Below, piece after piece: positions 29,664 through 56,340 of a stretch of 64,000 nt of DNA (the first letter of the stretch is position 1; every line of letters starts with the position of its first letter). The DNA lies in NCBI RefSeq assembly GCF_009707365.1, contig NZ_CP046122.1, positions 1,612,001 to 1,676,000 of the forward strand, given 5' to 3'. The notes below the pieces were generated by a model. It was given only the letters and a program-made list of their open reading frames with translations. It was not told the origin of the DNA and did not search any database. A program made the translations under genes and the position numbers. The DNA is from Microlunatus sp. Gsoil 973. GTDB taxonomy: Bacteria; Actinomycetota; Actinomycetes; Propionibacteriales; Propionibacteriaceae.

Positions 29664-29740
29664 CCCCGCAAGGTCAAAGTTTGACGCTGCGGCTGCGACA
29701 CGCCGAGCCGACGAGCCGGTGGGTCAACCTTTGAGGTTCG
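29664..29740 (+). repeat. Palindromic element A, locus I (single copy)
   Basis: TCAAAGTTTGA (29674-29684) preceded by GCAAGG and followed by a variant of the conserved block (GCTGCGGCTGCGACACGCCG), then TCAACCTTTGA (29724-29734), 50 bases on. The outer flanks (GCAAGG and GAGGTTCG) are partly inverted, so the whole is an imperfect 75-bp palindrome. It sits between divergent mihF and the DUF4037 gene. Confidence 0.85.
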
Positions 29741-29797
29741 GGCGGGGCCGCGGGAAATCCGGATGCGGCGGCGTCCGATGATCACCAGCATGGTCGG

Positions 29798-30844
29798 GTG
29801 CCACCCGACCGTTTCGTACCTGCCCTCGAGCTGAGTCGCGACTTCTACGCCGAGGCCGTCGCGCCGCTGCTGACCGGACACCGCCACAGTGCCGCACTGC
29901 TCGGCTGGGGATCGGATGTTCTCGGGTACGACACCCAGCGGTCGACCGACCACGGTTGGGGGCCGCGCCTTCAGATCTTCGTCAACCCGGCCGGGGTCGA
30001 TGCGGTGCGCGGCACGCTGGCCGGCCGGCTGCCCGAGGAGTTCCGGGGCCGCCCGGTTAACTTCGGATGGGACCAGGTGGCCCCGGAGCAGCATGTCGAA
30101 GTGCTCGGGCTCGGTACCTGGCTGACCGGGCAACTGGGCGTCGACCCGCGACCTGGCCTCGGACCGACCGACTGGCTGGCCATCCCCCAGCAGCAACTCC
30201 TCGGCGTGGTCCGTGGCGCGGTGTACGCCGACCCGGGCCGCGAGTTGGCGGCTGTCCGCACCGGTCTGCAGTGGTATCCGCGCGATGTCTGGCTGTGGCT
30301 GTCGGCCTGCCAGTGGCGTCGGATCTTCCAGGAGATCGCCTTCACCGGCCGGGCCGCGGAGGTCGGCGACGAACTCGGGTCGAAGATCATCGCCGGGCGG
30401 TTGGCGCGTGAGCTGATGCGGCTGTGGTTCCTGCAACAGCGCAGCTATTGGCCGTACACGAAATGGTTCGGTACGGCCTTCGCGAGACTGCCCGACGTCG
30501 ACGACCTCGGAACCGCTCTCGATCACGCCGTCTCCGCCGACGATCATCCGCAGCGTGAGTCCGGGCTGGTCGAGGCGTACCGGATCGTCGCCGGGAAGCA
30601 CAACCAACTCCGGCTCACCGACCCGGTGGAGTGGTCGATCGGGCCGTACTTCGGCCGGCCGTACCAGGTGTTGCACGGAGGGTTCGTCGAGGCCTGCCTG
30701 GCGGCGATCGGTGATGATCGGCTGCGCAAGCTGCCGTTGGTCGGTTCTGCGGATCAGTTCGTCGACTCGACCGATGTGCTTTCGGCGTCCGGCCGAACGC
30801 GGATGCTCAAACCGTTCCTCGACCGCCTCGGGCGGACCGGCTGA
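29798..30844 (+). CDS. DUF4037 domain protein (nucleotidyltransferase-like)
   Basis: A 348-residue soluble protein. The N-terminal half resembles a nucleotidyltransferase fold (TGHRHSAALLGWGSDVLGYDTQRSTDHGWGPRLQIFV, where GWGS and DHGWG carry the usual Gly-Ser and Asp positions). The C-terminal helical half holds the DUF4037 pattern (YPRDVWLWLSACQWRRIFQEIAF, LMRLWFLQQRSYWPYTKWFG). Relatives are often grouped with aminoglycoside or MNT-type nucleotidyltransferases, but no activity is established. GTG start at 29798. It converges exactly on pyrF with no spacing between stop codons. Its position inside the pyrF-mihF neighbourhood, behind palindromic element A, suggests an insertion. Confidence 0.8.
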   Translation: MPPDRFVPALELSRDFYAEAVAPLLTGHRHSAALLGWGSDVLGYDTQRSTDHGWGPRLQIFVNPAGVDAVRGTLAGRLPEEFRGRPVNFGWDQVAPEQHVEVLGLGTWLTGQLGVDPRPGLGPTDWLAIPQQQLLGVVRGAVYADPGRELAAVRTGLQWYPRDVWLWLSACQWRRIFQEIAFTGRAAEVGDELGSKIIAGRLARELMRLWFLQQRSYWPYTKWFGTAFARLPDVDDLGTALDHAVSADDHPQRESGLVEAYRIVAGKHNQLRLTDPVEWSIGPYFGRPYQVLHGGFVEACLAAIGDDRLRKLPLVGSADQFVDSTDVLSASGRTRMLKPFLDRLGRTG

Positions 30845-31681
30845 TCACCCGAGGCTCTGCTGTGCCTCGTCGACGGCGGCGCGGATCGCCCCGATGTCCG
30901 GCCCGGCCCGGAGGACGTCGCGGCTGCTGGACGGAATCACCTGCGGGTAGGCCGGTCCGAAGATCTTCCGCAGGTCGTCGGCCGTGCCGCCCTGTGCGCC
31001 AAGACCGGGAGCCAGGATGCTGCCGCCGAGGTTGCTGAAGTCCAGCGCCGTGCCCGGGTCGATGGTCGCGCCGACGACGACGCCGACGCTCCCCCACTCC
31101 CCGGCGGCCGACGCCCGGGCGCTGCGGTCGGCCGCGAAGTCGATCATGGCCTGGCTGATCGTTCCGCCCTCGGGGGCGGCGGCCCGCTGGACGGTCGCGC
31201 CCTCGGGATTGCTGGTGGCGGCCAGCACGTAGACGCCGCGGTCGGTTCGCTCGGCCAGCTCGATCGCGCCGTCCAGCGAACCGGGTCCGAGGAACGGGCT
31301 GACGGTGATCGCGTCGGCGGCCAACGATGACCCGTCGGCCAGGTAGGCGGCCGCGTAGGCGTCCATCGTCGACCCGATGTCTCCGCGTTTGACGTCCAAG
31401 AGCACCAGCACACCGGCCTCGCCGGCGTCGGCGATCAACCGTTCCAGGACAGCGATCCCGGCCGACCCGTACGCCTCGAAGAACGCCGACTGCGGTTTGA
31501 CGATCGCCACCCGGCCGGCGACCGCGTCGATCATGGTCCGGGCACACCGCTCCAGCCCGGCGGCGTCCCGCGGAAGACCCCAGTGATCAAGGATGCCCGG
31601 ATGCGGATCGATGCCAACGCACAGCCTGCCGTGCTTGGTGACCGCTTCACGCAGTCGCTCGCCGTAGGACGCTCGAGTCAT
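30845..31681 (-). CDS. pyrF: Orotidine-5'-phosphate decarboxylase, type 2
   Basis: PyrF converts OMP to UMP. The 278-residue length and the sequence place it in the type-2 subfamily common in actinobacteria: RLCVGIDPHPGILDHWGLP, IVKPQSAFFEAYGSAG, the catalytic LLDVKRGDIGSTMDAYA, ITVSPFLGPGSLDGAIE, and VVVGATIDPGTALDF with LAPGLGAQGG for the phosphate. The ATG at 31681 shares one base with the pyrD stop (TGATG). The same frame is open far upstream across pyrD, but that part is antiphase noise. Last gene of carA-carB-pyrD-pyrF. Confidence 0.96.
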   Translation of the reverse strand: MTRASYGERLREAVTKHGRLCVGIDPHPGILDHWGLPRDAAGLERCARTMIDAVAGRVAIVKPQSAFFEAYGSAGIAVLERLIADAGEAGVLVLLDVKRGDIGSTMDAYAAAYLADGSSLAADAITVSPFLGPGSLDGAIELAERTDRGVYVLAATSNPEGATVQRAAAPEGGTISQAMIDFAADRSARASAAGEWGSVGVVVGATIDPGTALDFSNLGGSILAPGLGAQGGTADDLRKIFGPAYPQVIPSSSRDVLRAGPDIGAIRAAVDEAQQSLG

Positions 31682-32774
31682 CAGCTGACCTCCTGGTTGA
31701 TCCGGTCGATGAGGCCGGGTCCGTGATAGATGAATCCGGTGTACACCTGCACCAGGCTGGCGCCGGCGTCGAGCATGGCCTGTGCATCGGCGGACGATTC
31801 GATGCCGCCGACGCCGATGATCGGTAACTTTGTACGGGCGGCGAGATGGCCGACCACCTGGCGCGCCCGGCGGGTCAGCGGTGCACCGGACAGTCCGCCG
31901 ACCTGCGGGGCGAGCCGGAGATCGTCGGGGCTGATCCCTTCCCGGGACAGGGTGGTGTTGGTGGCGATCAGACCCTGGACACCGACCGTTGTGCACACCT
32001 CGAGGACCTCCTCCAACGCGGCCTCGGACAGGTCGGGGGCGATCTTGACGAAGATCGGCACCGGCTGCGCCGGGCTGATCGTGCCCGCCTCGGCGGTCAG
32101 TGCGGTCAACAGGTCGGTCAGCGCGGTGCGGTCCTGCAGTGACCGCAGGCCGGGGGTGTTGGGGCTGGAGACGTTGACGGCGATGTAGTCGGCACGGTCG
32201 GCCAGCAGCCGGAACGAGGTGAGGTAGTCCTCGACGGCATGCTCCAGCGGAGTGATCTTGGTCTTGCCGATGGAGATGCCGACCGGGATGCCCAGCGCCA
32301 GGTTGCCGCGACGCACCCCGGCCGCTGCCAGCGTTCCGGCCAGCGCAGCAGCGCCGTGGTTGTTGAAACCCATCCGGTTGATCAGCGCACGGCTCTGCGG
32401 CAGCCGGAACAGCCGGGGTCGGTCGTTGCCGGGTTGGGCCTGCGCAGTCACCGTGCCGAGTTCGGCGAAGCCGAAGCCGAGGCTGCTCCACATCCGGGCG
32501 GCGACGCCGTTCTTGTCCAGGCCCGCGGCCAGCCCGACGACCCCGGGGAACGTCACGCCGGCGACGGTGACCGGACGGCGACGCCGGGCGAAGACCGCCC
32601 GGCCGGCCGCCCGCGCCGGAGGTACCCGCCCGGTCAGGGACAGCGCGCGCAGGGTCAACTCGTGGGCCCGTTCGGCGTCGAGTTGGAAGAGCACGGGCCG
32701 GACGGCTCGCCGATAGACCAGATCTGGGAAACGCGTGCTGGTTACACCCAGCACGACTTTCCCAGCCGGCTCGG

Positions 32775-32778
<4 letters not shown>
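31681..32778 (-). CDS. pyrD: Dihydroorotate dehydrogenase (quinone), class 2
   Basis: PyrD oxidises dihydroorotate to orotate with FMN and the quinone pool. It has the class-2 layout: an N-terminal helical membrane-contact region ([20 protein letters not shown]), then the FMN barrel with [62 protein letters not shown] containing the catalytic Ser, IFVKIAPDL, and [35 protein letters not shown]. 365 aa. The GTG at 32778 overlaps the carB stop by 4 bases. Confidence 0.97.
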
Positions 32779-36091
<3,313 letters not shown>

Positions 36092-36092
<1 letters not shown>

Positions 36093-37300
36093 CAGTTCAC
36101 TCCCTCGGCGTCGGCCAGCAGCTGGATGAACCGGTCGAAGAGGTAGGCCGCGTCGTGCGGTCCGGCCGCCGCCTCCGGGTGGTACTGCACACTGAACGCC
36201 TTGAGCCTTCCTTGATCATCTTTCAGTTCCAGGCCCTCGACCACATTGTCGTTGAGGCAGACATGGCTCACCCGCGCTGTTCCGTACGGCGTCGGGATGT
36301 CCTCACCGATCGGTGCGTCGACGGCGAATCCGTGGTTGTGTGCGGTGATCTCGACCTTGCGGGTACCCAGGTCCATCACCGGTTGGTTGATGCCGTGGTG
36401 GCCGTAGGTCAGCTTGTAGGTGCCGAATCCCAAGGCGCGCCCGAAGACCTGGTTGCCGAAACAGATCCCGAACACCGGAAGATCATCGGCCAGCGCTGCC
36501 CTGAGGAGTTCCACCTGGGCGTCGGCGACGGCGGGATCACCGGGTCCGTTGGAGAAGAAGACCCCGTCGGCACCGGTCGCCCGCAACTCGTCGGAGGAGA
36601 CGGTCGACGGCAGGACATGGGTCTCGATGCCGCGTTCGGCCATCCGGTGGGGCGTCATCGACTTGATGCCGAGGTCGATCGCGGCAACCGTGAACCGCTT
36701 GAAACCGATCGCCGGAATGATCCTGGTGCCGGAGACGGTGACGTCGTCGGCCAGGTGCGCCCCGATCATCGACGGCTGGCGGCGTACGCGTTCCAACAGG
36801 ACCGCCGGGTCGAGTTCGGTGGTCGAGATGCCGACCTGCATCGCTCCCTTGTCCCGCAGGTGCCGGGTCAGCGCGCGGGTGTCGACGCCGGCGATGCCGA
36901 CGATGCCCTGCGCCTTGAGCTCGGCGTCCAGGCTGCGGCGTGACCGCCAACTGCTCGGGATGCGCGCCGCGTCGCGGATGACGTACCCGGCCACCCAGAT
37001 CCGGGTCGACTCGTCATCCTCGTCGTTCCAGCCGGTGTTGCCGATGTGCGGCGCGGTAGCGACGACGACCTGGCGGTGATAGCTGGGATCGGTCAGCGTC
37101 TCCTGATAACCGGACATGCCGGTCTGGAAGACCGCCTCGCCGAAGGTCTCACCGGCGGCTCCGAAGGAATAACCGGAGAAGCTGCGACCGTCCTCGAGAA
37201 CGAGGATCGCCGGTGTTCTGGTCGCGGTGCCGCTCGGGGGAATGCCTGAGGGATCGGCCGTCACGAGGGAGTGGGCAGGCTGAGGCGCAGAATGCGACAT
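36092..37300 (-). CDS. carA: Carbamoyl-phosphate synthase small subunit (glutaminase)
   Basis: CarA hydrolyses glutamine and channels ammonia to CarB. The N-terminal CPSase domain has [17 protein letters not shown] and [17 protein letters not shown]. The class-I glutaminase domain has the nucleophile Cys in [18 protein letters not shown] and the catalytic His/Glu in [15 protein letters not shown]. 402 aa. A 20-30-residue Thr/Pro/Ser-rich N-terminus precedes the core. Start ATG at 37300, overlapping no gene but following a PyrR-type hairpin candidate. First gene of the pyrimidine operon here; pyrR, pyrB and pyrC, which usually precede it in actinobacteria, are not in the window. Confidence 0.97.
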
Positions 37301-37338
37301 CTACCGTCCTTTCCTGCCTCACAGGACAGGTCTTAAAG
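37301..37338 (-). promoter_or_regulatory. Candidate PyrR-binding RNA hairpin in the carA leader
   Basis: Read on the carA strand, the leader ends CTTTAAGACCTGTCC-TGTGAGG-CAGGAAAGG-ACGGTAG before the ATG. TCCTGTGAGGCAG closely follows the known PyrR-loop pattern (UCC-N-G-N-GAGG-C...), and CCTG/CAGG form the stem. The purine-rich GGAAAGGA right after the loop is the likely ribosome site, so the hairpin would gate translation initiation, as proposed for mycobacterial pyrR leaders. The pattern match is by eye; no folding was run. Confidence 0.6.
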
Positions 37339-37442
37339 GTTGGCGTGTATCGCAGGCGACGATATCAGTCTCGGCACCGGTATCCCGCATCCGCCCCTGA
37401 GCGGTTCGGCGGGCTTACAGTCGCCGCGGCTACGCTGCGGGC

Positions 37443-37925
37443 GTGACCTCCGATCGCCCCGGCCCCGAGACTGAGCGCGCCGCAGCGATGGCCGACCTGG
37501 AGCGGGAGATCAGCAAGTTCTTCCGCAGCGCACGCAGCCTCTCCGATCGGATCGCTGGCCGGATCCATCCCGATCTCGACGCCCCGGGCTATGCGCTGCT
37601 GGCCACCATCCTCGATCTCGACGCCGACGACCAGGGTGTCCGTGCCGTCGACCTGGCCAACCGGACCAGATTGCACAAGTCGACGCTCAGCCGCGCGATC
37701 GCCGACCTGGAACGCCTCGGCCTCATCGCCCGGGTGCGCGACCCCCACGATGCCCGGGCCAGGCTGGTCACCCTCACCGAACGCGGCCGCTCCGCCGTCG
37801 AACAGTCCCGGGTCGGACGCAGCGAACTGATGTTGAACCGGCTCGCCGAATGGGACACCAACGACCTCGTCCAGTTGGCGACGCTGCTGCAGCGCTTCAG
37901 CCGGGCGCTCACGCCCGACGCCTGA
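37443..37925 (+). CDS. MarR-family regulator (first of two)
   Basis: A 160-residue winged-helix regulator. The recognition region reads GVRAVDLANRTRLHKSTLSRAIADLERLGLIARVRDPHDARARLVTLTERGRSAVE, which is the standard MarR helix-turn-helix and beta-wing with the DPxDxR motif as DPHDAR. Helical dimerisation segments flank it. GTG start at 37443. It diverges from carA and precedes a second MarR gene by about 150 bases. It may autoregulate or act on the exporter downstream; the ligand is unknown. Confidence 0.9.
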   Translation: MTSDRPGPETERAAAMADLEREISKFFRSARSLSDRIAGRIHPDLDAPGYALLATILDLDADDQGVRAVDLANRTRLHKSTLSRAIADLERLGLIARVRDPHDARARLVTLTERGRSAVEQSRVGRSELMLNRLAEWDTNDLVQLATLLQRFSRALTPDA

Positions 37926-38001
37926 CGGGCCGTCGCGGGGGCTTTCCGGGACCGGGACTGAGCCGAAACTGAGGCCAAGCCGTGTGACTGGCCTGCAATT
38001 A

Positions 38002-38045
38002 GTTTCCTTAAGCAACGACACAGCCTTATAGTTGCTTTCAGCAAC
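38002..38045. promoter_or_regulatory. Paired dyads GTTGCT-TTC-AGCAAC, candidate MarR operators
   Basis: A perfect dyad GTTGCTTTCAGCAAC (38031-38045) and a degenerate copy GTTTCCTTAAGCAAC (38002-38016) share the 3-base spacer and AGCAAC half-site, with centres 29 bases apart. A possible -10 hexamer TATAGT (38027-38032) overlaps the downstream dyad, so a bound regulator would block the promoter of the second MarR-exporter operon. Confidence 0.6.
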
Positions 38046-38078
38046 CAAAGGAGTCCGGTCCCCACATGTCGATCGAAC

Positions 38079-38741
38079 ATGCCCATCGAGCGTGATCAGG
38101 CGGCGAGCCTGCTCGAGGCCCTGGTGTCCCTGGTGCGGGTGACTCGCACGATCGCCCACCGGGATGCCGCGCACAGCGTGGCGGCGACCCCGATCGCACT
38201 GCTCAAGTTGGTCTCCGAGACCGATCCGCGGCTGGGTGATCTCGCCGAGCAGTTGCGAGTGAAGCCGTCGGTGGCGTCCCGTGCCGTTGCCGCACTGGAG
38301 AGCCAAGGCTACGTACGTCGGATCGCCGACCCGGGTGATGCCCGGGCCTGTCGGGTACACATCACCGGTGCCGGCCGGGCCTACCTGCGGTCGCGCGAGG
38401 AATGGGCAGTGGAGATGGTCGCCCGGACCATGTCCGACTGGTCGGCGGAGGAGGCAGAGATGTCGGTCCGCGTGCTGCAGCGGCTCGAGCAGAGCGTCAC
38501 CGACTGGGTCAGCCACTTCGACCGGGCGGTGGAGACGGGCACCGACCCGCTGGCGATGCCGGTCCCGACGCGGGACGGGGCCGACGGCGGACCCTCCGCC
38601 GGACCCGCAGCCCGGCTCGCCGAACAGGACGACCAGACCACATACCCAGATCACCACTCCGAGGACGACGGTGTCCCGGCGGACAATCCGAACGCGATGC
38701 TGAAGACAGCACTGACCACTTGGGAGACGACCGCAGTATGA
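38079..38741 (+). CDS. MarR-family regulator (second), coupled to exporter
   Basis: A 220-residue protein with a MarR winged helix (PRLGDLAEQLRVKPSVASRAVAALESQGYVRRIADPGDARACRVHITGAG, again with a DPxDxR wing). It carries an unusual C-terminal tail of about 60 residues rich in Pro, Asp and Thr. The ATG at 38079 lies 26 bases from the only AGGAG. An out-of-frame ATG at 38066, better placed for that site, opens a 9-codon reading frame that overlaps this start. The two starts look like a 13-base tandem duplication (ATGTCGATCGAAC / ATGCCCATCGAGC). The stop overlaps the exporter start (ATGA), so the two are translationally coupled, and it is the most likely repressor of that exporter. Confidence 0.88.
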   Translation: MPIERDQAASLLEALVSLVRVTRTIAHRDAAHSVAATPIALLKLVSETDPRLGDLAEQLRVKPSVASRAVAALESQGYVRRIADPGDARACRVHITGAGRAYLRSREEWAVEMVARTMSDWSAEEAEMSVRVLQRLEQSVTDWVSHFDRAVETGTDPLAMPVPTRDGADGGPSAGPAARLAEQDDQTTYPDHHSEDDGVPADNPNAMLKTALTTWETTAV

Positions 38742-41074: not shown

Positions 41075-41096
41075 CCCAGGCAATTACGGACACACG

Positions 41097-42145: not shown

Positions 42146-42933
42146 GCGCGAGCCCTTCGTGTCAATCGGCGCTGTGCACCGTCACATACGTTCATGAGTC
42201 CGGTTGATTCACCCGGACGATTTGTCTTGCTGCCAGCCCGTCTACGGGCAACGGCCAATTCTAGCGCCGGGCCCGCAAGGCGAGCGAGTTGATCATGTCG
42301 AGCACGCCCGACCCGGGTCCCGGGCCTTGTGCCGTGTCTCGCCCGAGCCGCAACCTCAAACTTTGAGTCAGCGACCTCCCCCACCGGCGCGCCCCGACGA
42401 TCCGCAAGGTCAAAGTTTGAGCCAACGGCCCTCGCCCCCGGCGTGTCGCAGCCGCACGATCAAACCTTGAGCTTGCGACCTCCCCCACCGGCGCGCCCCG
42501 ACAATCCGCAACGTCAAAGTTTGAGCCAACGGCCCTCGCCCCCGGCGTGTCGCCAGCCGCACGATCAAACCTTGAGCTTGCGACCTCCCCCACCGGCGCG
42601 CCCCGACAATCCGCAAGGTCAAAGTTTGAGCCAACGGCCCTCGCCCCCGGCGTGTCGCAGCCGCACGATCAAACCTTGAGCTTGCGACCTCGCCCACCGG
42701 CGCGCCCCGACAATCCGCAACGTCAAAGTTTGAGCCAACGGCCCTCGCCCCCGGCGTGTCGCAGCCGCGCGATCAAACTTTGACCTTCGCGCAAGGGAGT
42801 GGGGCCCGGCGGCGCGCGTTACGCCGGTCCGGTGGCGCGCGTCACGCGGCGCGGTGGCGCGCGCACCCGGGGGCGGCGCCGCGGGTCGCGGAGGAGAACG
42901 GGACACGCGGGGCGGGGAGCAGAACGCGTACGC
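42146..42933 (-). repeat. Gene-free 790-base gap with palindromic element A array (locus II): nine palindromes, four 104-105-bp units
   Basis: Palindromes of the TCAAA-G/C-TTTGA type start at 42356, 42410, 42460, 42514, 42565, 42619, 42669, 42723 and 42773; intervals are 54, 50, 54, 51, 54, 50, 54 and 50. They alternate between TCAAAGTTTGA and TCAAACCTTGA, making a 104-105-bp tandem unit repeated about four times with near-identical sequence (about 42,356-42,783). The conserved GTGCGGCTGCGACACGCC block reads on the minus strand. The flanks hold only a small hairpin GCCCGT-CT-ACGGGC (42236-42249) in the efp leader and, after 42,790, very GC-rich sequence without a feature I recognise. Confidence 0.92.
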
Positions 42934-45227: not shown

Positions 45228-45251
45228 CCGTTCACCCCTCTCGCTCGGGCC

Positions 45252-46594: not shown

Positions 46595-46654
46595 ACCACT
46601 CCCGGGTCGTGGTTCGGTCGGCCCCCGACGTTGGTTGCCCTTGTCAAGACTGCG

Positions 46655-47227
46655 TCAAGACCGCGCCGTGCGCAGGCCCGGCAACTGCTCGATGATCGAG
46701 TCCACGAGCTCGGCGGGCCCGCGGTTGTCGGTCGCCAGGCTGATCGTCGCCACCGCTGCGTACAAGGGCTGGCGTTCACGCATCAGTTTGATCAACTGAC
46801 CTCGTACGTTACCCAGCAACAGCGGACGAGCAGTATTCAGGCCGATTCTTTCGGCTGCGGCGGCGATCCCGACCTGCAGCCACACCACCTGGTACGACTC
46901 CAGCGCATCCCGAATCGCGTCCGAGGTCACCGCTCCGCCGCCCAGCGAGACGACGCCGGACTCTTCGGCGAGGATCTCCAGGGTCGTCGCGGTCTCCAGC
47001 TCCCGGAAGACCGGCTCGCCATCGCTGGCAAAGATTTCACCGATCGTCTTGCCGGTGCGTTCCTCAATCACCTCGTCGACGTCGACGAAGGTGCGGCCGA
47101 GCCGTTCGGCCAGCGACCGGCCGACGGTCGACTTGCCGGAGCTGGGCGGCCCGACCAGGATGATCGGGCCACTCCGGGCGGCCGAGCCGGTTGCCGCCGA
47201 CCGGTCGTCGGGGAGCCGGTCACTCAT
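46655..47227 (-). CDS. aroK: Shikimate kinase
   Basis: AroK phosphorylates shikimate. Walker [16 protein letters not shown], the shikimate-binding [18 protein letters not shown] with its Asp pair, FRELE and VVSLGGGAV are diagnostic, and the LID region lies near [10 protein letters not shown]. 190 aa from ATG 47227; this start overlaps the aroC stop by 8 bases (ATGAGTGA), implying coupling. The first 20 residues are a non-conserved polar extension. Confidence 0.96.
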
Positions 47228-48416
47228 GGAGCTGCAGTCCCCGCTCCGCAACGTCGGCCAGGTAGCTACGGTGGTTCCGGGCCGCCTCCGTCACCGAGTC
47301 ACCGCCGAACTTCTCCGTGGCCGCGTCGGCGAGCACCAGGGCCACCATCGCTTCGGCCACCACACCAGCGGCCGGGACCGCGCAGACGTCGGAGCGCTGA
47401 TTGTGCGCGACAGCCGGCTCAAGGGATCCCGTGTCAACGGTGCGCAAAGCCCGCGGAACGGTGGAGATCGGCTTCATCGCTGCGCGGACGCGGAGCACTT
47501 CACCGGTGCTCATGCCGCCCTCGGTGCCCCCGGCGCGGTGGGAGGCCCGGGCAATGCCGCCGTTCTCCAGGACGATCTCGTCGTGGGCGCGGCTGCCCCG
47601 GACCCGGGCGAGTTCGAAGCCGTCGCCGACCTCGACACCCTTGATCGCCTGAATGCCCATCAACGCACCGGCCAGCCGGGCGTCCAACCGCTTGTCGCCC
47701 TGGATGTGGGAACCGAGGCCGGGTGGCAGCCCCCAGGCGAGCACCTCGACCACGCCGCCGATGGTGTCGCCCTCCTTCTGCGCGGCCTTGACCTCCTCCA
47801 GCATCTTTTCGCCGGCGGCCGCGTCGAAGCAGCGCAGTTCGTGGCCGTCGATGGCCGGCAGGTCGTCGATGGTCGGCATCAGACCGTACGCCGCCCGGAT
47901 CGGGCCGATCTCGACGACGTGGCTCAGCACCGTGATCCCGTACGCCTGCTGCAGGTAGGCCATCGCGACCCGCCCCAGGGCGACCCGGGACGCCGTCTCC
48001 CGGGCGCTGGCCCGCTCGAGGATCGGTCGCGCCTCGTCAACGCGGTACTTCTGCATCCCGACCAGGTCGGCATGTCCCGGGCGTGGCCGGGTCAGCGGCG
48101 CGTTCCTGGCCAGCCCGGCCAGGATCTCCGGATCGACCGGGTCCGGCGACATCACCGTTTCCCATTTGGGCCATTCGGTGTTGGCGATCTCGATCGCGAC
48201 CGGGGACCCCAGAGTGACGCCGTGCCGGAGTCCGCCGATCATCGTCACCCGGTCGGCCTCGAACTTCATCCGGGCGCCCCGGCCGAAGCCGAGCCGCCGC
48301 CGGGCGAGGGCCGCCGAGATGTCGGCCGACGTCACCTCGACACCGGACGGGATTCCCTCCAGGATCGCCACCAGTCCCTGGCCGTGTGACTCTCCTGCGG
48401 TCAGCCAGCGCAGCAT
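47220..48416 (-). CDS. aroC: Chorismate synthase
   Basis: AroC converts EPSP to chorismate using reduced FMN. The family start [54 protein letters not shown] and [14 protein letters not shown], and the FMN and substrate His in [15 protein letters not shown], are all intact. 398 aa, normal for actinobacteria. ATG start at 48416. The last step of chorismate synthesis lies between aroE and aroK. Confidence 0.98.
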
Positions 48417-48472
48417 GCCCGGAACCCTCTCATCCGATACCTTTCAGGCCCCTTCATGACCCTCACGACCTC

Positions 48473-49300
48473 TCATGTCGGGCAGTCTTTCACGCCGGCC
48501 AACACCTTCCGGCCGGCGTCCAGCAGCAACGCGGCCGGCACCGTCCGACCGGTCATCAGTTCGATCTGGCCGACGGCCTGGTTGACCAACAGGTCCAGCC
48601 CGTTGAGCACCGTCCGGCCGGCCTGTGCCGCGGCGTCGGCAAGTGCGGTCGGCCAGGGATCGTAGATCACATCGAAGATCACCGGGGCAGCCGCGGCCGC
48701 CTGGTCGGCGATCGGATCCGCCGCACCCTTGGTCACAGTGGAGATCAACACGTCCGCGGCGGGCACCTCCGCGCCCCAGGCGCTGACCTGCAGGCCGACG
48801 CCCAGCCGGTCGGCCAGGCCACCCAGGGTCCGCCGGGCATGATCAGGACGGCGCGCCATCAGCCGTACCACCTCGGCTCCCATCCGGGTCACCGAGATCA
48901 GTGATGATCGTGCCGTGGCACCCGAACCCAGCACAGTCGCGGAGTTGATCTTGTCGACGCCGGCCGCCGCGAATGCCGCGACCAGACCACCGACATCGGT
49001 GTTGTAGACCTTCGGACGCGACCCGGGCTCGAAGATCATCGTGTTGCCTGCGGCGGCGAGCAGACTGACCTCGTCCGGTTCGCCGACCTCCAGGGCGGCG
49101 ACCTTCAGCGGCATCGTCAGACTGAGCCCGCGCCAGGAATCGTCAAGCCCAGCGACGAAATCGGCGAGTTGATCAGCCTCGATCCGGTGCCGTTCGTACT
49201 CCCAGTCGCTCAGCCCGAGTCGGGCGTAGGCGGCCCGGTGCAGGGCCGGGGACAGGGAATGCTCGATCGGTGAACCGAGAACTGCGCAGCGTACGGTCAT
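48473..49300 (-). CDS. aroE: Shikimate dehydrogenase
   Basis: AroE reduces 3-dehydroshikimate with NADPH. CAVLGSPIEHSLSPALHRAAY at the N-terminus, the catalytic Lys in LSLTMPLKVAALE, AAGNTMIF, the Asn/Asp of YNTDVGG, and the nucleotide loop VLGSGATARSSL are conserved. The usual NADPH motif GAGG reads GSGA here. 275 aa from ATG 49300; an ATG at 49321 is seven codons longer and leaves only 9 bases to the mltG stop. Neither has a strong ribosome site, so the choice rests on homology. Confidence 0.93.
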   Translation of the reverse strand: MTVRCAVLGSPIEHSLSPALHRAAYARLGLSDWEYERHRIEADQLADFVAGLDDSWRGLSLTMPLKVAALEVGEPDEVSLLAAAGNTMIFEPGSRPKVYNTDVGGLVAAFAAAGVDKINSATVLGSGATARSSLISVTRMGAEVVRLMARRPDHARRTLGGLADRLGVGLQVSAWGAEVPAADVLISTVTKGAADPIADQAAAAAPVIFDVIYDPWPTALADAAAQAGRTVLNGLDLLVNQAVGQIELMTGRTVPAALLLDAGRKVLAGVKDCPT

Positions 49301-49330
49301 GGCCGGATGATCATCGCCCATCGGGGAAGA

Positions 49331-50530
49331 TCAGCAGCGACCGGGGTGCTTGCCGCACCAGGCCTGGAACTCTGCGACGTACGCGTCGTGTTGGGCCAGC
49401 GTGGTGGCGAACTTCGTCTCGCCGGTGTCCGGATTGACCGTGACGAAGTACATCCAACTGCCGGATGCCGGGTTCGCCGCCGCCTGCAGTGAGGCCTTGC
49501 CCGGTGCCGAGATCGGTCCGGGCGGCAGCCCGACGTGCTTGTAGGTGTTGTACGGCGACGCGTTGGCCCGGTCGGCCGGGGTCGTGGTCACCCGGTCGGA
49601 CTTGTTCAGGGCATAGTGCACGGTGGAGTCCATCTGCAGCGGCATCTTGTGCGCCAACCGGTTGTAGATCACCCGGGCGGCCTTCGGCCGGTCCGCGGGG
49701 CGGCGGACCTCCTTCTCGATGATGCTGGCAACGATCACGATGTCGTAGGGCGACCGGTGCATCGCCTGCGCCCGGCCCTGGAGATCAAGACCGTCGGACA
49801 CCGTGCCGAATCGCTCGGTCATCTGCTTCAGCACCGAGGTCGCCGACGTGTCACCGGTCAGTTCGTAGGTGTCTGGGAACAGGAACCCCTCGGGTCTGTT
49901 GTGCGCCCAGTCCGGCAGCCCGAGGTTCTGCGGCTTCTTCAATGCTGCCTGGAAATCCTTGCGGCTGATCTTGGTCTGCTTGGAGAGTGAGGCGACCTGA
50001 TCACTGAGCCGGAGGCCCTCCAACACCTGCACCGTCTTGCGGATGCGGTACTTCGCCGGGTGGGTCAACCGGTTCAGCGCGGACGCTGCCGGCACCTGGG
50101 TGCGCATCTTGTAGGTACCGGCCTGCACCACCGGGTTGCCGTTGTACTTCTCGATCGCCTTCTTGAACGCCTTCGTCGACTTGATCACATCGGCCTTCTG
50201 CAGGTCGATGCCGATAGAGGTCAGCGACGCACCGGACGGCACAGTGAAGCGGACGTCCTTGGTGCCGCGGGCGTCGGTGTAATCCGGGGTGGACAGCGTC
50301 TCCTCGGCGAAGACCGAGAACTTCTGCCAAGCGAACAGCCCACCGGCCAGGATGATGCCCAACGCGACCAGGACGGCCAGGCAGCTCTTGCCGCGCTTGA
50401 CCGCGGTCTTGCTGCGCCGTTCCGGCGGCCCGTCGAGCAGATCTGTCACGTCGTCGGGTTTCCTTGTCCCCTCGATGAGCTCGGTCTCCTCGATGAGCTC
50501 CTGGTCAGTTCGACCGGTGTCAGGCATCAC
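49331..50530 (-). CDS. mltG: Endolytic murein transglycosylase MltG
   Basis: MltG cleaves nascent peptidoglycan glycan strands and sets their length. A cytoplasmic acidic N-terminus (about 45 residues) leads to one TM helix (LAVLVALGIILAGGLFAW), then a LysM-like region (VRFTVPSGASLTSIGIDLQ) and the YceG domain with the catalytic Glu in IVASIIEKEV, PLQMDSTVHYAL and YNTYKHVGLPPGPISAPG. 399 aa; short C-terminal tail with two Cys. The start is either GTG 50530 or the adjacent ATG 50527; both overlap the ruvX stop. The ruvX-mltG-aroE order is conserved in actinobacteria. Confidence 0.95.
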   Translation of the reverse strand: MMPDTGRTDQELIEETELIEGTRKPDDVTDLLDGPPERRSKTAVKRGKSCLAVLVALGIILAGGLFAWQKFSVFAEETLSTPDYTDARGTKDVRFTVPSGASLTSIGIDLQKADVIKSTKAFKKAIEKYNGNPVVQAGTYKMRTQVPAASALNRLTHPAKYRIRKTVQVLEGLRLSDQVASLSKQTKISRKDFQAALKKPQNLGLPDWAHNRPEGFLFPDTYELTGDTSATSVLKQMTERFGTVSDGLDLQGRAQAMHRSPYDIVIVASIIEKEVRRPADRPKAARVIYNRLAHKMPLQMDSTVHYALNKSDRVTTTPADRANASPYNTYKHVGLPPGPISAPGKASLQAAANPASGSWMYFVTVNPDTGETKFATTLAQHDAYVAEFQAWCGKHPGRC

Positions 50531-51024
50531 TTCGTCCGATCGGTGGGAAATAGTAGCTGGCCCGGCGCCGTACCCGTGGAACGCTCGGTCTGGAGCGCGC
50601 GGTCAAGGATCTCCCGCGCAGCTTCGGAGTCGATCAGTCCTCGCTGTTTCTTGGCCGATTTTCCGCCTGCCCTGAGGCGGCCGGCCGCCATCACCGTACT
50701 CAGTCGCTCGTCGACCAACCGGACTGCCGGCGTGTCGCGGCCGAACCGGTCGGCGAGCGCCTCCAGCAGGCCGTCCACCTTGCCGCGGATCTTCACCGCC
50801 GCCGGCCCCTCGGTACCGTTCAGCGACCGTGGTAGGCCGACGACCACCTCGAGCGGCCGGTATTCGTCGACCAGGTCGGCGATCCGGCCAAGTTCGCCGT
50901 CGCCGGCTGGTACGAAGTCCAGTGGTACGGCCAGCATGCCGTCGGGGTCGCTGACTGCGACACCGATCCGGGCGTATCCCCAGTCGATGCCCAGTCGGCG
51001 ACCCCGACGGGAACTCATCTGCAC
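50527..51024 (-). CDS. ruvX: RuvX/YqgF, putative Holliday junction resolvase or pre-16S rRNA nuclease
   Basis: An RNase H-fold protein of 165 aa. The N-terminal acidic motif LGIDWGYARIGVAVSD, the second motif VVVGLPRSLNGTEGPAA and the third RLVDERLSTVMA supply the expected metal-binding residues. E. coli YqgF matures 16S rRNA 5' ends; a resolvase role is also proposed. A basic C-terminal tail follows the core. It lies 33 bases downstream of alaS and overlaps mltG. Confidence 0.93.
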   Translation of the reverse strand: MQMSSRRGRRLGIDWGYARIGVAVSDPDGMLAVPLDFVPAGDGELGRIADLVDEYRPLEVVVGLPRSLNGTEGPAAVKIRGKVDGLLEALADRFGRDTPAVRLVDERLSTVMAAGRLRAGGKSAKKQRGLIDSEAAREILDRALQTERSTGTAPGQLLFPTDRTK

Positions 51025-51057
51025 CTGATCCCTCGAACCCCGGCCGCTCTGCTGTGC

Positions 51058-53730
51058 CTAGCCGGTCTGGAGCGTGTGGCCGATGGCGTACTCGACGTCA
51101 CGCAGCGCATCGGCGATCCTGCTGCTGTCGCTGCCGCCGCCCTGGGCGATGTCGTCGCGGCCGCCGCCCCGTCCGCCGAGGGTCTGGGTGGCGACCCGCA
51201 CGAGGTCTCCCGCCTTGAGTCGCCGGAACCGCGCGCCGCCGGTGGTCGCGATGACCACGCTGGGCTTGTCCGGCGTGCCGCCGACCAGGGCGACCACCGC
51301 CGCCTTCTCCTGGACCCGGTCGCGAACCTGGGTGGCCAGCGTCCGCAGGTCACCGCCGGTCACGCCCGGCACGTGGTCGGCGACGTAGGCCACGCCCCAC
51401 ATGTCGTGCGCCTTGGCCAGGATCGGCTCGATCGCGGTGGAGAGGTTCTGGCTCTTCAGCTCCGCGATCTGCCGCTCCGCATCCTTCAGCTGGGAGACCA
51501 TCCGGTTGATCCGGTCGACCAGCTGGTCGGGTTGCACGTTCAGCGCCTCGGTCAGCCCTTGGACCAGTGCCCGCTCCTGGGCCAGCTGCTGGAACGCCTC
51601 CATGCCGACGAACGCCTCGACGCGGCGGATGCCGGAGCCGACCGAGGACTCGGCGTTCACCGCGATCAACCCGACCTGCGCCGACTGCTGGACGTGAGTG
51701 CCGGCGCACAGCTCGCGGGACCAGCCCTCGCCCATGTCGACCACGCGGACGATGTCGCCGTACACCTCGCCGAACAGGCCGATCGCGCCGGACGCCCGCG
51801 CCTCGCCGATCGGCATCTCACGGGCGACCACCCCGAGGTCGTCACGGATCGCGGTATTGGCGATGCCCTCGATCTTCTCCCGTTCCGACTCCGACACCTG
51901 GTTGCCCCAGGCGAAGTCGAGCCGCAGGTAACCGGGTCTGTTGAACGAACCGCGTTGCAGTGCGGTCGGGCCGAGGATCTCGTGCAGCGCCTGGTGGATC
52001 ACGTGGGTGGCCGAGTGCGCCTGGCAGGCGCCGAGCCGCCACTGTGGGTCGACCTCGGTGCTGACCACCTGGCCGGTTCGCAGTTCGCCGTCGACGACCT
52101 TGGCGTGATGCACGACCAGCCCCTTGACCGGCCGCTGCACGTCGACGATGTCCAGCACCGTTCCGTCGGCGGTGGTGATCCGGCCGTGGTCGCCGGACTG
52201 GCCACCCGATTCCGGGTAGAACGGCGTCTCCTCCAGCACCACCTCCACGGTGTCGCCGGGTCCGACCGCCTCGGTCAACTCTCCGTCGGAGATGATGCCG
52301 CGGACCTGGGACTCGTTGCTCAGCGTCCGGAATCCGACGAACGGCGTTTCGCCGCGGTCGCGGAGCTGGGCGTACGCCTGCACCGCCTGGGCGTTGCCCT
52401 TCTTGGCCTTGGCGTCCGCCTTCGCCCGCTGGCGCTGCTCATCCATCAGCCGGCGGAAGCCCTGCTCGTCGACGTTCAGGCCCTGTTCGCCCGCCATTTC
52501 CAGGGTCAGGTCGATCGGGAAGCCGTACGTGTCGTGCAGCTGGAAGGCCCGTTCGCCGCTGAGCGTGGTCTGCTGGTTGCGCTTGGCATCGGAGACCGCG
52601 AGATCGAAGATCTGGGTGCCCGCGGTGAGCGTCCGGGAGAATGCCTCCTCCTCGCCGTAGGCGACCTCGCTGATCCGCGGCCAGTCGTTCTCCACTTCCG
52701 GGTAGGACGCCTTCATCACATCCCGGCTGACCGGGAACAGCTCGCCGAAGGTGGATTCGTTGACGCCGAGCAGGCGCATCGACCGGATCACCCGGCGCAG
52801 CAGCCTGCGCAGCACATAGCCGCGGCCCTCGTTGCCGGGGGTGACACCGTCGTTGATCAGCATCAGGCCGGAGCGGACGTGATCGGCGATCACCCGCAGC
52901 CGTACGTCGTCCTCATGGTCCGCGCCGTAGCGGCGGCCGGACAGCTCCGAGGCCTTGTCGAGGACCGGGTAGACCTCGTCGATCTCGTACAGGTTGTCGA
53001 CACCCTGCAGCAGGTACGCGACCCGCTCCAGGCCCATGCCGGTGTCGATGTTCTTGCGCGGCAGCTGGCGCAGCACGTCGAAGTCGTCCTTGGCGCGGAC
53101 CGCGGACAGCTCCTCCTGCATGAAGACCAGGTTCCAGATCTCCAGGAACCGGTCCTCGTCGACGACGGGACCGCCGTCGGGACCGTACTCGGGTCCGCGG
53201 TCGACGTAGATCTCGCTGTTCGGTCCGCCCGGGCCGGGGATACCCATGTGCCAGTAGTTGTCCAGGAGCCCGCGGCTCTGGATCCTCTCCTCCGGCAGAC
53301 CGGCGATCGCCTTCCACAGGCCGCGGGTCTCGTCATCGCCGTCCAGCACGGTGACCCAGATCTTGTCCGGGTCGAAGCCGAGGCCGCCCGCCTCCTGTGA
53401 CTTGGTGATCAACTCCCAGGCGTAACGGATCGCGCCGTCCTTGAAGTAGTCGCCGAAGGAGAAGTTGCCGTTCATCTGGAAGAAGGTGCCGTGCCGGGTG
53501 GTCTTGCCGACCTCTTCGATGTCGGCGGTCCGGACGCACTTCTGCACGCTGGTGGCGCGCGGCCACGGGTTGGGTTCGGCGCCGGTGAAGTACGGCTTGA
53601 ACGGCACCATCCCGGCGTTCACGAACAGCAACGTCGGGTCGTTGTAGATCAGCGGTGCACTCGGCACCTCGTGATGATCGCGTTCGACGAAAAAGTCCAG
53701 GAAGCGGCGTCGGATCTCCGCGGTTCTCAT
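51058..53730 (-). CDS. alaS: Alanyl-tRNA synthetase
   Basis: AlaS charges tRNA-Ala. The 890-residue class-II enzyme has the catalytic core start RFLDFFVERDHHEVPSAPLI, NAGMVPFKPYF, GMGLERVAYLLQG, the editing-domain zinc motifs HSATHVIHQAL and ELCAGTHV, and the C-terminal C-Ala domain (ALVGGTPDKPSVVIATTG). Start ATG 53730 with AAGGAGG about 9 bases upstream. The DUF6167 and DUF948 genes lie upstream on the same strand, as in many actinobacteria. Confidence 0.98.
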   Translation of the reverse strand: MRTAEIRRRFLDFFVERDHHEVPSAPLIYNDPTLLFVNAGMVPFKPYFTGAEPNPWPRATSVQKCVRTADIEEVGKTTRHGTFFQMNGNFSFGDYFKDGAIRYAWELITKSQEAGGLGFDPDKIWVTVLDGDDETRGLWKAIAGLPEERIQSRGLLDNYWHMGIPGPGGPNSEIYVDRGPEYGPDGGPVVDEDRFLEIWNLVFMQEELSAVRAKDDFDVLRQLPRKNIDTGMGLERVAYLLQGVDNLYEIDEVYPVLDKASELSGRRYGADHEDDVRLRVIADHVRSGLMLINDGVTPGNEGRGYVLRRLLRRVIRSMRLLGVNESTFGELFPVSRDVMKASYPEVENDWPRISEVAYGEEEAFSRTLTAGTQIFDLAVSDAKRNQQTTLSGERAFQLHDTYGFPIDLTLEMAGEQGLNVDEQGFRRLMDEQRQRAKADAKAKKGNAQAVQAYAQLRDRGETPFVGFRTLSNESQVRGIISDGELTEAVGPGDTVEVVLEETPFYPESGGQSGDHGRITTADGTVLDIVDVQRPVKGLVVHHAKVVDGELRTGQVVSTEVDPQWRLGACQAHSATHVIHQALHEILGPTALQRGSFNRPGYLRLDFAWGNQVSESEREKIEGIANTAIRDDLGVVAREMPIGEARASGAIGLFGEVYGDIVRVVDMGEGWSRELCAGTHVQQSAQVGLIAVNAESSVGSGIRRVEAFVGMEAFQQLAQERALVQGLTEALNVQPDQLVDRINRMVSQLKDAERQIAELKSQNLSTAIEPILAKAHDMWGVAYVADHVPGVTGGDLRTLATQVRDRVQEKAAVVALVGGTPDKPSVVIATTGGARFRRLKAGDLVRVATQTLGGRGGGRDDIAQGGGSDSSRIADALRDVEYAIGHTLQTG

Positions 53731-53858
53731 GCTCGTAGTCCTCCTTGCCGCCGAGGGGTCACAAAATCCTCAATATCTGCGGCGTGTCGTCGCCTTGACG
53801 ACCCCTCGTCAGGCAGCTGCTGTGGGAGCGGGGCTTCCGGCTGTCGGCCGGGAGCGGC

Positions 53859-54122
53859 TCAGCGCTCTCCATTGTCGTCGGTGGGCTGGTTTCGGCCGAG
53901 CGCGTCGAGGATCTCCTCTTCGCGTTCGGCCATGGCAGCTCGTGCCCGATCGACGAAATCTGACGCGGCCGTACCGATGCTCCCGGCGCGTTGGCCGACG
54001 CCCTGGCGTACACGTCCGGCGATCGCCTCCGGGCGCGACTTCGCCAGGTAGTCACGGGTCTTCTTGATCACGAAGATTCCCGCGGCCACTCCCAGGGCGA
54101 ACCAGATCAGGCGCTTGATCAT
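53859..54122 (-). CDS. Small DUF6167-type membrane protein
   Basis: An 87-residue protein with one N-terminal hydrophobic helix (LIWFALGVAAGIFVI) followed by a basic, then charged amphipathic helix (RVRQGVGQRAGSIGTAASDFVDRARAAMAERE). It matches by position and pattern the small protein found between DUF948 and alaS in actinobacteria; function unknown. It starts 7 bases after the DUF948 stop, so the two are co-translated. Confidence 0.75.
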   Translation of the reverse strand: MIKRLIWFALGVAAGIFVIKKTRDYLAKSRPEAIAGRVRQGVGQRAGSIGTAASDFVDRARAAMAEREEEILDALGRNQPTDDNGER

Positions 54123-54129
54123 CGCGGGA

Positions 54130-54528
54130 TCACTTCTTCCGGCGCGCGGTCTTGCCGGACCTGCCCTCGCCGCGGATGGCCTTGCGGATGCCGTAGGTGA
54201 ACGCGGCGGTCTTGACCATCGGGCCGCCGAGGGTCGCCGAGAACAGTGTCGCCATGTTGGCCGCGTTCTCGCTGACCACGGTGGCGTGCTGGCTCACCTT
54301 CGCCAGGTCCGCGGTTACGACCGACAGCCGCGAAAGCTCCTCGTTGGTCGCCCGGACCGTACCCTGCATCTCGGTCAGGATCGGAACGCTCTCGTGGCCG
54401 ATATCGCGCACCGCGAGCCGGACCTCTTCCAGGACCCGGCCGAGTTTGAGCAGCGGAATCGCGAAGAGGATCACCAGAATCGCGAAAGCGATCGCCGCGA
54501 TCAGGCCGGCAATCTCCCCAATGGTCAT
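54130..54528 (-). CDS. DUF948 single-pass membrane protein
   Basis: A 132-residue protein: TM helix IAGLIAAIAFAILVILFAIPLL at the N-terminus, then an extended helix likely to form a coiled coil (LGRVLEEVRLAVRDIGHE, RATNEELSRLSVVTADLAKV) and a Lys/Arg-rich C-terminus (GRSGKTARRKK). DUF948 proteins are linked by sequence to general stress or envelope functions but lack a proven role. ATG 54528 has a purine-rich GGAGAGG upstream; the frame extends 23 codons further without support. Confidence 0.82.
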   Translation of the reverse strand: MTIGEIAGLIAAIAFAILVILFAIPLLKLGRVLEEVRLAVRDIGHESVPILTEMQGTVRATNEELSRLSVVTADLAKVSQHATVVSENAANMATLFSATLGGPMVKTAAFTYGIRKAIRGEGRSGKTARRKK

Positions 54529-55229
54529 CGGTTCCTCTCCTGCTCGTACGTTTGTCTGCCCACGAACCCTACCGTGCTGGCCGCAGCACTCCTGCACTCA
54601 TATCCGCCGCATGGGTATCCCGGCCGAAGCGTACGAATCACGACCGCTCGTCCCGCTCGCCCAGCTCGTCGCCCGCAACGCCGTCCTGCAACCCCGGTGC
54701 CTCCTCCCCCATGGGTCAACGTTTGACCTTCCGACCCGGACCCGCCGCTCCCCGCGCCGCTCGCAAGGTCAAAGTTCGACCGTGCGGCTCCGACACGCCG
54801 AAGGTCAGAGCCCGTGGATCAACGTTTGACCTTCCCACCCGGACCCGCCGCCCCCGCGCCGCTCGCAAGATCAAAGTTTGACCGTGCGGCTCCGACACGC
54901 CGATGGTCAGAGCCCGTGGATCAACGTTTGACCTTCCCACCCGGACCCGCCGCCCCCCGCGCCGCTCGCAAGATCAAAGTTTGACCGTGCGGCTCCGACA
55001 CGCCGATGGCCAGAGCCCGTGGATCAACGTTTGACCTTGCGAACCCGAGTCCCGGTCGTCCCAAGGTCGGAGTTTGAGCTTGCGTACCCGACGCCGACTC
55101 CCCCATGGTCAAAGTTTGAGTCTGCGGATTGGGGCGAAGGGACGGCGAACTCGCCGAGATCGTCGGTGGCACCCGCTGGGCTGTGGATATCCGTACGTCC
55201 TGGCGCACGGTCCGGCCCAGACTTGCCGG
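54529..55229 (+). repeat. Gene-free 700-base gap with palindromic element A array (locus III), nine palindromes
   Basis: TCAAA/TCAAC-type 11-bp palindromes start at 54716, 54769, 54819, 54871, 54921, 54974, 55024, 55067 and 55109 (intervals 53, 50, 52, 50, 53, 50, 43, 42). The central part is a 102-103-bp tandem unit with GTGCGGCTCCGACACGCCG after every second palindrome; the last two palindromes are degenerate and more closely spaced. The array reads toward the DUF559-type gene. Bases 54,529-54,700 and 55,130-55,229 show no gene and no clear promoter. Confidence 0.92.
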
Positions 55230-56261
55230 GTGCCCACGACCGCCTGGGAACGAGAGCTGCCCTTCGCCGTACGTCCGGAGTCCGCCGCGACATTGATCGA
55301 CCAGGGGATAACCCGCGGCATCTACCGCGGCCGCGAGTGGCGTCGCGTACGGCGTGGCTATTACGTCCCTGCGAGAGCAGGGTGGCTGCCCGACGAACAA
55401 CGCTTCACCGCCGCGCAGCGGATTCTCGACGTCACGCCTGCCTTGTCGGGACAGGCGGCGCTCGCAACGTGGGCCGCGGCGTACATCTTCGGCGTCGACT
55501 GGTTGGACGGCTTCGACCCGAACACGCTCGAGGGTCTGCCGATCGACATCGTTGCCGGGGACCGCCGCCGACGGCAGCGCAAGGGAATCACCTATCGATT
55601 CACGGCGCTGCCCCACGACGAAACCGTCATCCGCCACGGAATGCGGATCACCGCTCCCATCCGTACGGCCTTCGACGGCGCGCGATGGGCCGGTTCGCTC
55701 GAGGACGGTGTGGTCTTCGTCGATGCCATCGCCCGGTTCTGCAGGCTCGATCTGGACGAGCTCAAGTCCTACGTCGCCGAGCATGCGCAATGGATCGGGA
55801 TCGAGCAGGCCACGGCGGCCGTCGCGCTGGCCATGCCGGCGGTGAAAAGCACCTGGGAGAGCCGGTTGCGGATGTGCTGGCTGATCGACGCCGCACTGCC
55901 TCCACCGCTGATCAACGTCCCGATCTTCGACCCGCGCGAGCACCTGTTGGGGATCGTCGACCTCTTCGATCCTGAATCGGGTCTTGTCGCCGAGTTCGAC
56001 GGCGGACAACACCGCGATCCCGAGCAGCATCGGCTGGACAACATCCGGGAGGAGAGTCTCGAGTCAGCCAACCTCGTGGTTGTGCGCTGCGACAAGACCG
56101 ACATACGCCGGGCCCGCCGGCAACTCGTCGACCGACTGAACGTCGGTCATCGGCGCGGCCAGGCGCGCGATCGGTCCAATGACACTTGGACTCTGCGACA
56201 GCCCGCCTGGTGGCGACGACGATCCGCGCGATGGCCGCCGGATGGCGTCCCGCTCACGTAA
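55230..56261 (+). CDS. AbiEi-like / DUF559 (Vsr-fold) protein flanked by element A
   Basis: A 343-residue soluble protein of a type frequent in actinobacteria. The N-terminal ~80 residues resemble the winged-helix AbiEi antitoxin-type domain (LIDQGITRGIYRGREWRRVRRGYYVP). A middle segment (APIRTAFDGARW) follows. The C-terminal domain looks like a DUF559/very-short-patch-repair endonuclease fold: ESRLRMCWL, then GIVDLFDPESGLVAEFDGGQH, where Glu, Asp and Glu could be the PD-(D/E)xK-type metal ligands, and LVVVRCDKTDI. Neither toxin-antitoxin nor nuclease activity is shown for this family as far as I know, and no partner toxin is adjacent. GTG 55230 is the likely start; the frame is open 52 codons upstream into the repeats. 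Element A copies lie on both sides. Confidence 0.75.
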   Translation: MPTTAWERELPFAVRPESAATLIDQGITRGIYRGREWRRVRRGYYVPARAGWLPDEQRFTAAQRILDVTPALSGQAALATWAAAYIFGVDWLDGFDPNTLEGLPIDIVAGDRRRRQRKGITYRFTALPHDETVIRHGMRITAPIRTAFDGARWAGSLEDGVVFVDAIARFCRLDLDELKSYVAEHAQWIGIEQATAAVALAMPAVKSTWESRLRMCWLIDAALPPPLINVPIFDPREHLLGIVDLFDPESGLVAEFDGGQHRDPEQHRLDNIREESLESANLVVVRCDKTDIRRARRQLVDRLNVGHRRGQARDRSNDTWTLRQPAWWRRRSARWPPDGVPLT

Positions 56262-56340
56262 CTCGCAAGCTCGAAGTTTGACCGTGCGGCTCCGACACGC
56301 CGGTCGCCCCAGCCGCAGGATCAAACTTTGAGCTTGCGGG
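56262..56340 (+). repeat. Palindromic element A, locus IV (single copy)
   Basis: TCGAAGTTTGA (56271-56281), GTGCGGCTCCGACACGCCG, then TCAAACTTTGA (56321-56331), 50 bases apart. The outer arms GCAAGCTC and GAGCTTGC are exact inverted repeats, giving the cleanest view of one unit: an about 70-bp imperfect palindrome built of two smaller palindromes. It begins immediately after the DUF559-type gene. Confidence 0.9.

Follow-up and report, generated by a model that had tools for sequence, protein, structure and literature searches.

The 64,000-nucleotide stretch of Microlunatus sp. Gsoil 973 analysed here (contig NZ_CP046122.1, positions 1,612,001 to 1,676,000 of the forward strand; hereafter the window) carries a family of short paired palindromes and, between two of its loci, a gene for a candidate restriction-like nuclease. 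We consider it probable (about 0.7) that the palindromes are scattered, non-coding satellites of a nuclease cassette that is bracketed by palindromes, with an element of some 50-75 bp. Directly visible in the DNA are the bracketing, its specificity for each gene, the palindromic form of most elements, their dispersal in several genomes, and the fixed 50-bp spacing in this genome.

The genome's own palindrome loci lie less than 5 kb apart in only one case, and these two loci together bracket a single gene (window 55230-56261). The upstream array ends with a core 110 bp before the gene start, its last full unit lying about 195 bp before it; on the downstream side, the unit's first core starts 10 bp past the stop. 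Among 40 loci, the most central unit is the one that adjoins the gene; an upstream unit ranks 11th. The preliminary description of this DNA had stated that no transposase is present. For Y1/HUH enzymes this holds (PF01797 at E 0.001 gave no match in the genome, the same search being positive in 5 of 14 control genomes), and no RAYT-like transposase, which it had suggested looking for, was found, but the nuclease-like gene was overlooked. Its other proposal, that a dedicated DNA-binding gene would be worth seeking, proved fruitful: the DUF559/AbiEi-like nuclease candidate, not a RAYT, is what lies between the units.

Homologs of this gene occur in all 20 genomes of the genus (75 matches), and many of them are flanked by a pair of similar palindromic elements, each gene having an element sequence of its own. 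Bracketing was called by a strict local score of at least 17 between the two flanks, with control genes taken from sampled stretches. By this measure 14 of the 16 close homologs fetched first are bracketed, against 3 of 624 control genes; the low scorers (L248 and L267) share short stretches only between their flanks. With 450-bp flanks, 33 of 50 homologs scored among the 75 are bracketed, compared with 6 of 617 controls that include a gene which is itself a homolog. Three of five further homologs at 46-52% identity also pass, and two (L276, L277) fail. Beyond the genus, tblastn against the plasmid collection found three homologs at 28-30% identity (one in Tsukamurella, two in Arthrobacter), all bracketed, with scores of 25, 24 and 27. 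The association of nuclease-like genes with gene-specific bracketing palindromes is thus strongly supported. Inverted symmetry reaches or exceeds the 95% control level in 24 of 36 bracketing elements and the 99% level in 21, with a median span of 59 bp (cassettes were searched over a slightly wider range than controls). The loop word CGGCGTGTC, from the conserved block of the Gsoil 973 family, is found near the elements of 6 of the 36 cassettes and 2 of 624 controls; its choice was partly post hoc, and it also heads an unguided list of 9-mers. Some cassettes are orthologous by their neighbours. The element of L247 was not found next to L267, its ortholog, where the neighbours are 80-84% identical and the element of L267 itself is weak; the orthologous L285 and L269 still have a common element; and among seven orthologous pairs compared, three score above all shuffles and four do not.

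A second palindrome family was found in a related species (G004), where one of two orthologous gaps compared holds palindromes of another sequence, AACTCGAGTT, paired at 51 bp. The sequence ACAACTCGAGTT has 10 matches in G004 and none in the other 19 genomes of the genus or in controls. Pairs are spaced by 51 bp (six), 50, 53, 61 and 62 bp, with 39, 39 and 52 bp between pairs, and their loci coincide with none of the Gsoil 973 loci except at the gap of discovery. Because both loci and sequence differ, the two related species carry separate palindrome families of similar architecture. One of the five nuclease homologs of G004 (L272), which has an in-frame stop, carries AACTCGAGTT pairs on both sides, 52 and 51 bp apart; since the AACTCGAGTT family was found without reference to any gene, this is an independent confirmation of the bracketing.

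Dispersal likewise extends beyond the Gsoil 973 family. Nine private palindromes were sought in genome samples, and three have copies away from their gene: one copy of the L244 type and two of the L264 type in G012, and one of the L266 type in G010 (reversed queries of the nine gave no match, except one for L248). The palindrome of Arthrobacter StoSoilB13 is matched at 6 strand-wise places on one replicon and 5 on another, amounting to 6 or more distinct copies, with no match in other plasmid records; that of Arthrobacter ERGS1:01 has 9 strand-wise places, 4 of them within the cassette. In Tsukamurella there are 5 places, 2 in the cassette and 3 outside, two of the latter being intergenic on other records. 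The records NZ_LR134451 and NZ_LR134461 (Tsukamurella tyrosinosolvens NCTC13231), labelled as plasmids, contain genes including gatA and map and could be contigs of a chromosome.

In the window, the 11-bp palindrome TCAAAGTTTGA has 32 strand-wise matches with at most one mismatch, where 0.14 are expected, in four loci, just as the preliminary description had it. The exact 11-mer has 66 strand-wise matches in the whole 4.91-Mb genome and its reversed control none; with a palindromic query each copy counts on both strands, hence strand-wise counts exceed those of distinct copies. We fetched 41 short stretches around matches and aligned 62 units with exactly 50-bp spacing into a covariance model. 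In the Gsoil 973 genome this model gave 147 strand-wise matches, by our count at least 76 distinct places in at least 43 loci, so that the family is dispersed and not confined to the window (the search scored 150 of 7618 candidates, and weak copies may escape it).

The unit of about 75 bp consists of two TCAAnnnTTGA sites in inverted context. It runs from an outer CGCAAGG or CCGAAGG through the core TCAAAGTTTGA and an inner arm (e.g. CCGTGCGGCT) to the loop block CGACACGCCG, followed by a variable loop, an AGCCG-type arm, the second core TCAAACTTTGA, and an outer CCTT(GC or CG)G. Genome-wide the cores are exactly 50 bp apart in 67 of 72 units found by pattern, 51 bp in three, and 49 bp in two, and a partner core lies at 49-51 bp from 144 of the 164 cores retained. 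Window units keep to 50 bp with a single 51-bp copy (42514/42565). The spacing thus does not vary freely between copies. Of the 50-54 bp previously given for the pairs, 50 stands as a strict value, while 52-54 bp are distances between neighbouring units of arrays. The loop block GCGGCTnCGACACGCCG, described as nearly invariant, is common, and some units carry another loop of equal length instead. Phasing over five helical turns had also been claimed; 50 bp amounts to 4.8 turns at 10.5 bp per turn, and the spacings within units (50 bp) and between them (42-44, 52-56 and 64 bp) share no single phase, so we rejected this explanation. Divergence from the consensus, taken over one unit per locus at 40 loci, is 1-3% in the core arms, 56% in the loop and about 50% in the outside flanks; the inner 39 bp have accumulated 476 substitutions over these loci with their length almost unchanged. 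As the units had been found through their cores, we also selected independently on the inner block alone, allowing one mismatch: 44 of 48 matches fall inside known units, and the remaining 4 are fewer than the 8 control matches (three have no core-like site nearby, one has sites with 2 mismatches only). This pattern of conservation fits protein-readable sites better than a hairpin.

The 41 clusters lie between convergent (14), divergent (13) and tandem (12) genes, with 2 unclassified; 21 are arrays and 20 single, and gene calls overlap a unit at three loci (L027, L038, L039). A role as terminator or promoter was discarded in view of these mixed orientations. The DNA outward of the units is G-rich (skew -0.29 on the left and +0.26 on the right, about 0 in control gaps; p 4e-8), and short tandem repeats abut the units on 25 of 82 flank sides compared with 5 of 54 sides of control gaps (p 0.003). 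Examples of the latter are L014, L015, L019, L026 and L044, and in the window 56336-56401 and 42803-42887. At 57277-57378 the window also has some 8.5 copies of a 12-bp tandem repeat, which stands apart from the present findings.

The bracketed gene would encode a DUF559/AbiEi-like nuclease of the PD-(D/E)XK type, a candidate assignment based on profile matches. AbiEi models match the middle of the protein and a methyl-directed restriction enzyme model its C-terminus, where it also has weak matches to DUF559/MTES_1575. Among 14 homologs at E 0.1, MTES_1575 is matched by 8, DUF559 by 7 and AbiEi_1 by 3; the AbiEi models of PADLOC match 13 of the 14, and mREase_II matches 4. Residues invariant in all 14 include E210, D244, E255, D257, H261, H267, D270, N271, R273, E274 and E275. 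A sequence search of the PDB gave nothing significant, no homolog in viral contigs was confirmed, and a single-sequence structure prediction was not used (predicted local distance difference test, pLDDT, 34). The neighbouring genes scanned in the window encode a DUF948 protein and a TetR-type protein, and no partner gene was recognised among them. A TTATCCACA-like box, which resembles a DnaA box, lies upstream of 10 of 16 homologs, often around -47, and upstream of 4 of 624 control genes. The features of the window are listed in Table 1.

Table 1. Palindrome units, nuclease candidate and upstream box in the window
Feature	Position	Strand	Basis
Single unit, cores 29674 and 29724	29665..29743	+	sequence search, covariance model
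Array of four units (42410/42460, 42514/42565, 42619/42669, 42723/42773) with lone core 42356; inter-unit distance 54	42356..42792	-	
Array upstream of the nuclease candidate gene: units 54769/54819, 54871/54921 and 54974/55024; lone cores 54716 and 55109	54716..55119	+	
ATATCCACA, one mismatch from the TTATCCACA box	55182..55190	-	
Gene of 343 aa: AbiEi-like middle, DUF559/MTES_1575/mREase-like C-terminal part, PD-(D/E)XK candidate; GTG start chosen by us	55230..56261	+	
Single unit directly past the stop codon of the nuclease candidate gene, cores 56271 and 56321	56262..56340	+	

The unit itself has a very narrow distribution. When the spacing is left free, the paired-core pattern occurs in one of the 20 genomes of the genus, Gsoil 973 itself; with fixed spacing and one mismatch it is found in this genome and in 0 of 197 other genomes of the taxonomic family (some incomplete). 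Scanning GTDB as a whole yielded 35 scattered stretches, and the 11 inspected look chance-like save those of Cohnella and, less clearly, Paractinoplanes. Cohnella thermotolerans (L062, L065, L067) and Cohnella sp. JJ-181 (L085) hold TCAAnnnTTGA-type tandem arrays with a 51-bp period, possibly an analogous system in another phylum. In Paractinoplanes polyasparticus (L075, 4405-4466) TCAAGCTTTGA repeats with GC-rich DNA between them resemble the Gsoil 973 units. The viral collection gave 29 candidate stretches for the pattern; the plasmid collection gave 2 weak partial matches to the unit and the phages none. Samples of relatives were also screened for analogous families, with nothing found; these screens are insensitive, as one missed all nine known element loci of G004, and another recovered just one pair among those loci and, in the window, one true pair. 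A k-mer screen found other repeats, among them a frequent dispersed CCCTGAGCCTGTCGAAGGG in the sample of G002 (L173-L177). A different, GGGTGCCGCTGCCGCTGG-like repeat lies just past stop codons in G003 and G004 (L124, L125, L136).

To account for these observations, we propose that the nuclease-like protein recognises its own palindrome in multimeric form, an arrangement that would fix the spacing and leave the loop sequence free. It would nick or cut at the element, and repair or copying would then seed new copies in intergenic DNA, probably via a cut and its repair. Tandem arrays and the short repeats beside units may be what recurrent breakage leaves behind, and the specificity of enzyme for palindrome would change between species. 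The fixed spacing agrees with a multimer bound to two sites, and the arrays with their adjoining tandem repeats fit recurrent breakage. Several points weigh against this proposal. Binding, cleavage and movement by the nuclease candidate are inferred from the sequences, and the window protein scores 19.7 bits against the DUF559 profile at its C-terminus, a weak match below the cut-off of 20.6. Bracketing falls below the threshold in 17 of the 50 genus homologs, including the second homolog of Gsoil 973 (L275). Five of the nine private palindromes have no extra copy in samples of 100-600 kb, and that of L245 in G003 has a third copy close to its gene. Target-site duplications were not seen at 18 isolated units (longest flank repeat 2.89 on average, 2.86 for crossed flanks), and no clean empty site was found among the relatives compared: G012 has a 50-bp gap opposite L009 of Gsoil 973 (147 bp), with flanks too diverged for placing the ends, and the Arthrobacter copy has no informative relative for such a comparison. 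Finally, AbiEi antitoxins are autoregulators, and the bracketing elements could be operator sites.

This last point leads to another reading, which we hold to be unlikely: the palindromes would be binding sites of an AbiEi-like autoregulator, and the dispersed sites a host regulon or chromosome-organising sites rather than mobile satellites. The AbiEi matches of nearly all homologs agree with it, and kept spacing and core arms around a free loop do resemble protein sites. Elements flank the genes on both sides, however, and the Gsoil 973 units occupy gaps of all orientations, so that they are not promoter-bound; nor would a host function be expected to lack any match in the 197 other genomes of the family. 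It is very doubtful that the nuclease candidate would instead serve self-marking or defence, attacking DNA while the palindromes act as regulatory or protective tags. The mREase_II matches and the AbiEi-like matches in a defence library point that way, and the want of a recognised partner gene among the DUF948 and TetR-type neighbours points away from it.

Hairpins acting in RNA, as terminators or stabilisers, are the least credible alternative. Single units can form long hairpins, but pairing of the arms (74.3%) is below that of shuffles (76.5%), 500 of 500 shuffles being at least as high over 61 related rows, and the flavours of the two arms are independent (Fisher p 0.40 and 0.26, one unit per locus); therefore selection seems to act on two sites at a fixed distance rather than on a hairpin. 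Moreover, Rfam has 0 matches in the window, and units are present between divergent genes too. There is also little probability that the palindromes are ordinary miniature inverted-repeat transposable elements (MITEs) or repetitive extragenic palindromes (REPs) mobilised by some conventional transposase encoded at another place in the genome, with the bracketing due to chance. Size, intergenic position and species restriction fit MITEs, and the transposase search covered the Y1 family; yet the bracketing recurs in the genus and in all three homologs from other genera, the isolated units lack target-site duplications, and the genome has no Y1 transposase.

If the palindromes are indeed satellites of nuclease cassettes, a testable candidate enzyme can now be named for one set of palindromes, and dozens of candidate enzyme-palindrome pairs would be at hand for studying the evolution of DNA specificity. 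For a gene family that is still little understood, the predicted DNA target could be read from the flanks of its own genes, and a new route by which DNA spreads, through a restriction-like nuclease, may have come into view. We give even odds to a wider proposition: that actinobacteria hold a large unrecognised class of selfish, palindrome-bracketed, restriction-like nucleases, each maintaining and spreading a private dispersed palindrome by break and repair, with a specificity that changes too fast for sister species to share any. Such nucleases would replace the REP/RAYT system in a group reported to lack RAYTs, and might be the missing mobiliser of other RAYT-less palindromes.

Among known systems, AbiEi antitoxins and the DUF559/MTES_1575 restriction-like proteins are related to the candidate by sequence matches over its middle and C-terminal parts. 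We know of no bracketing of AbiEi, DUF559 or MTES_1575 proteins by private dispersed palindromes, and searches of the open-licence literature of PubMed Central (PMC) gave no title or abstract describing DUF559-type genes so bracketed; an earlier account elsewhere is possible. Free-standing homing endonucleases resemble the cassette as proposed here in that a nuclease gene spreads together with its own DNA target. Their target is split, whereas here complete palindromes stand on both sides and many copies have no gene. With MITEs the units share short length, inverted repeats, dispersal and the absence of coding capacity; they differ in having no target-site duplication and in that the bracketed gene is no known transposase. 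A parent insertion sequence with unit ends was not seen either: none of the fetched stretches has a classical transposase between two units, the transposase search having covered the Y1 family. The closest parallel is the REP/RAYT system. REPtrons and TIRtrons are described as short intergenic palindromes, often inverted dimers with spacers of constant length, each family having one palindrome-flanked enzyme gene and being family-specific and species-restricted (PMC3733652, PMC6006769). Dispersed palindromes and a dedicated bracketed enzyme gene are present here as well, a likeness of architecture only, as the enzyme differs: there is no Y1/HUH gene and a restriction-like protein takes its place. 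The GTAG tag is missing too (0 of 84 unit ends); CGTC occurs at 17 of 84 ends compared with 7 in shuffled sequence, without a constant location (no single position has more than 5 of 84). Since neither the Y1/HUH enzyme nor a tag of fixed location was found, the Gsoil 973 family is not a member of REP/RAYT, though it seems to work like one, and by analogy may be regarded as its functional counterpart with an unrelated enzyme.

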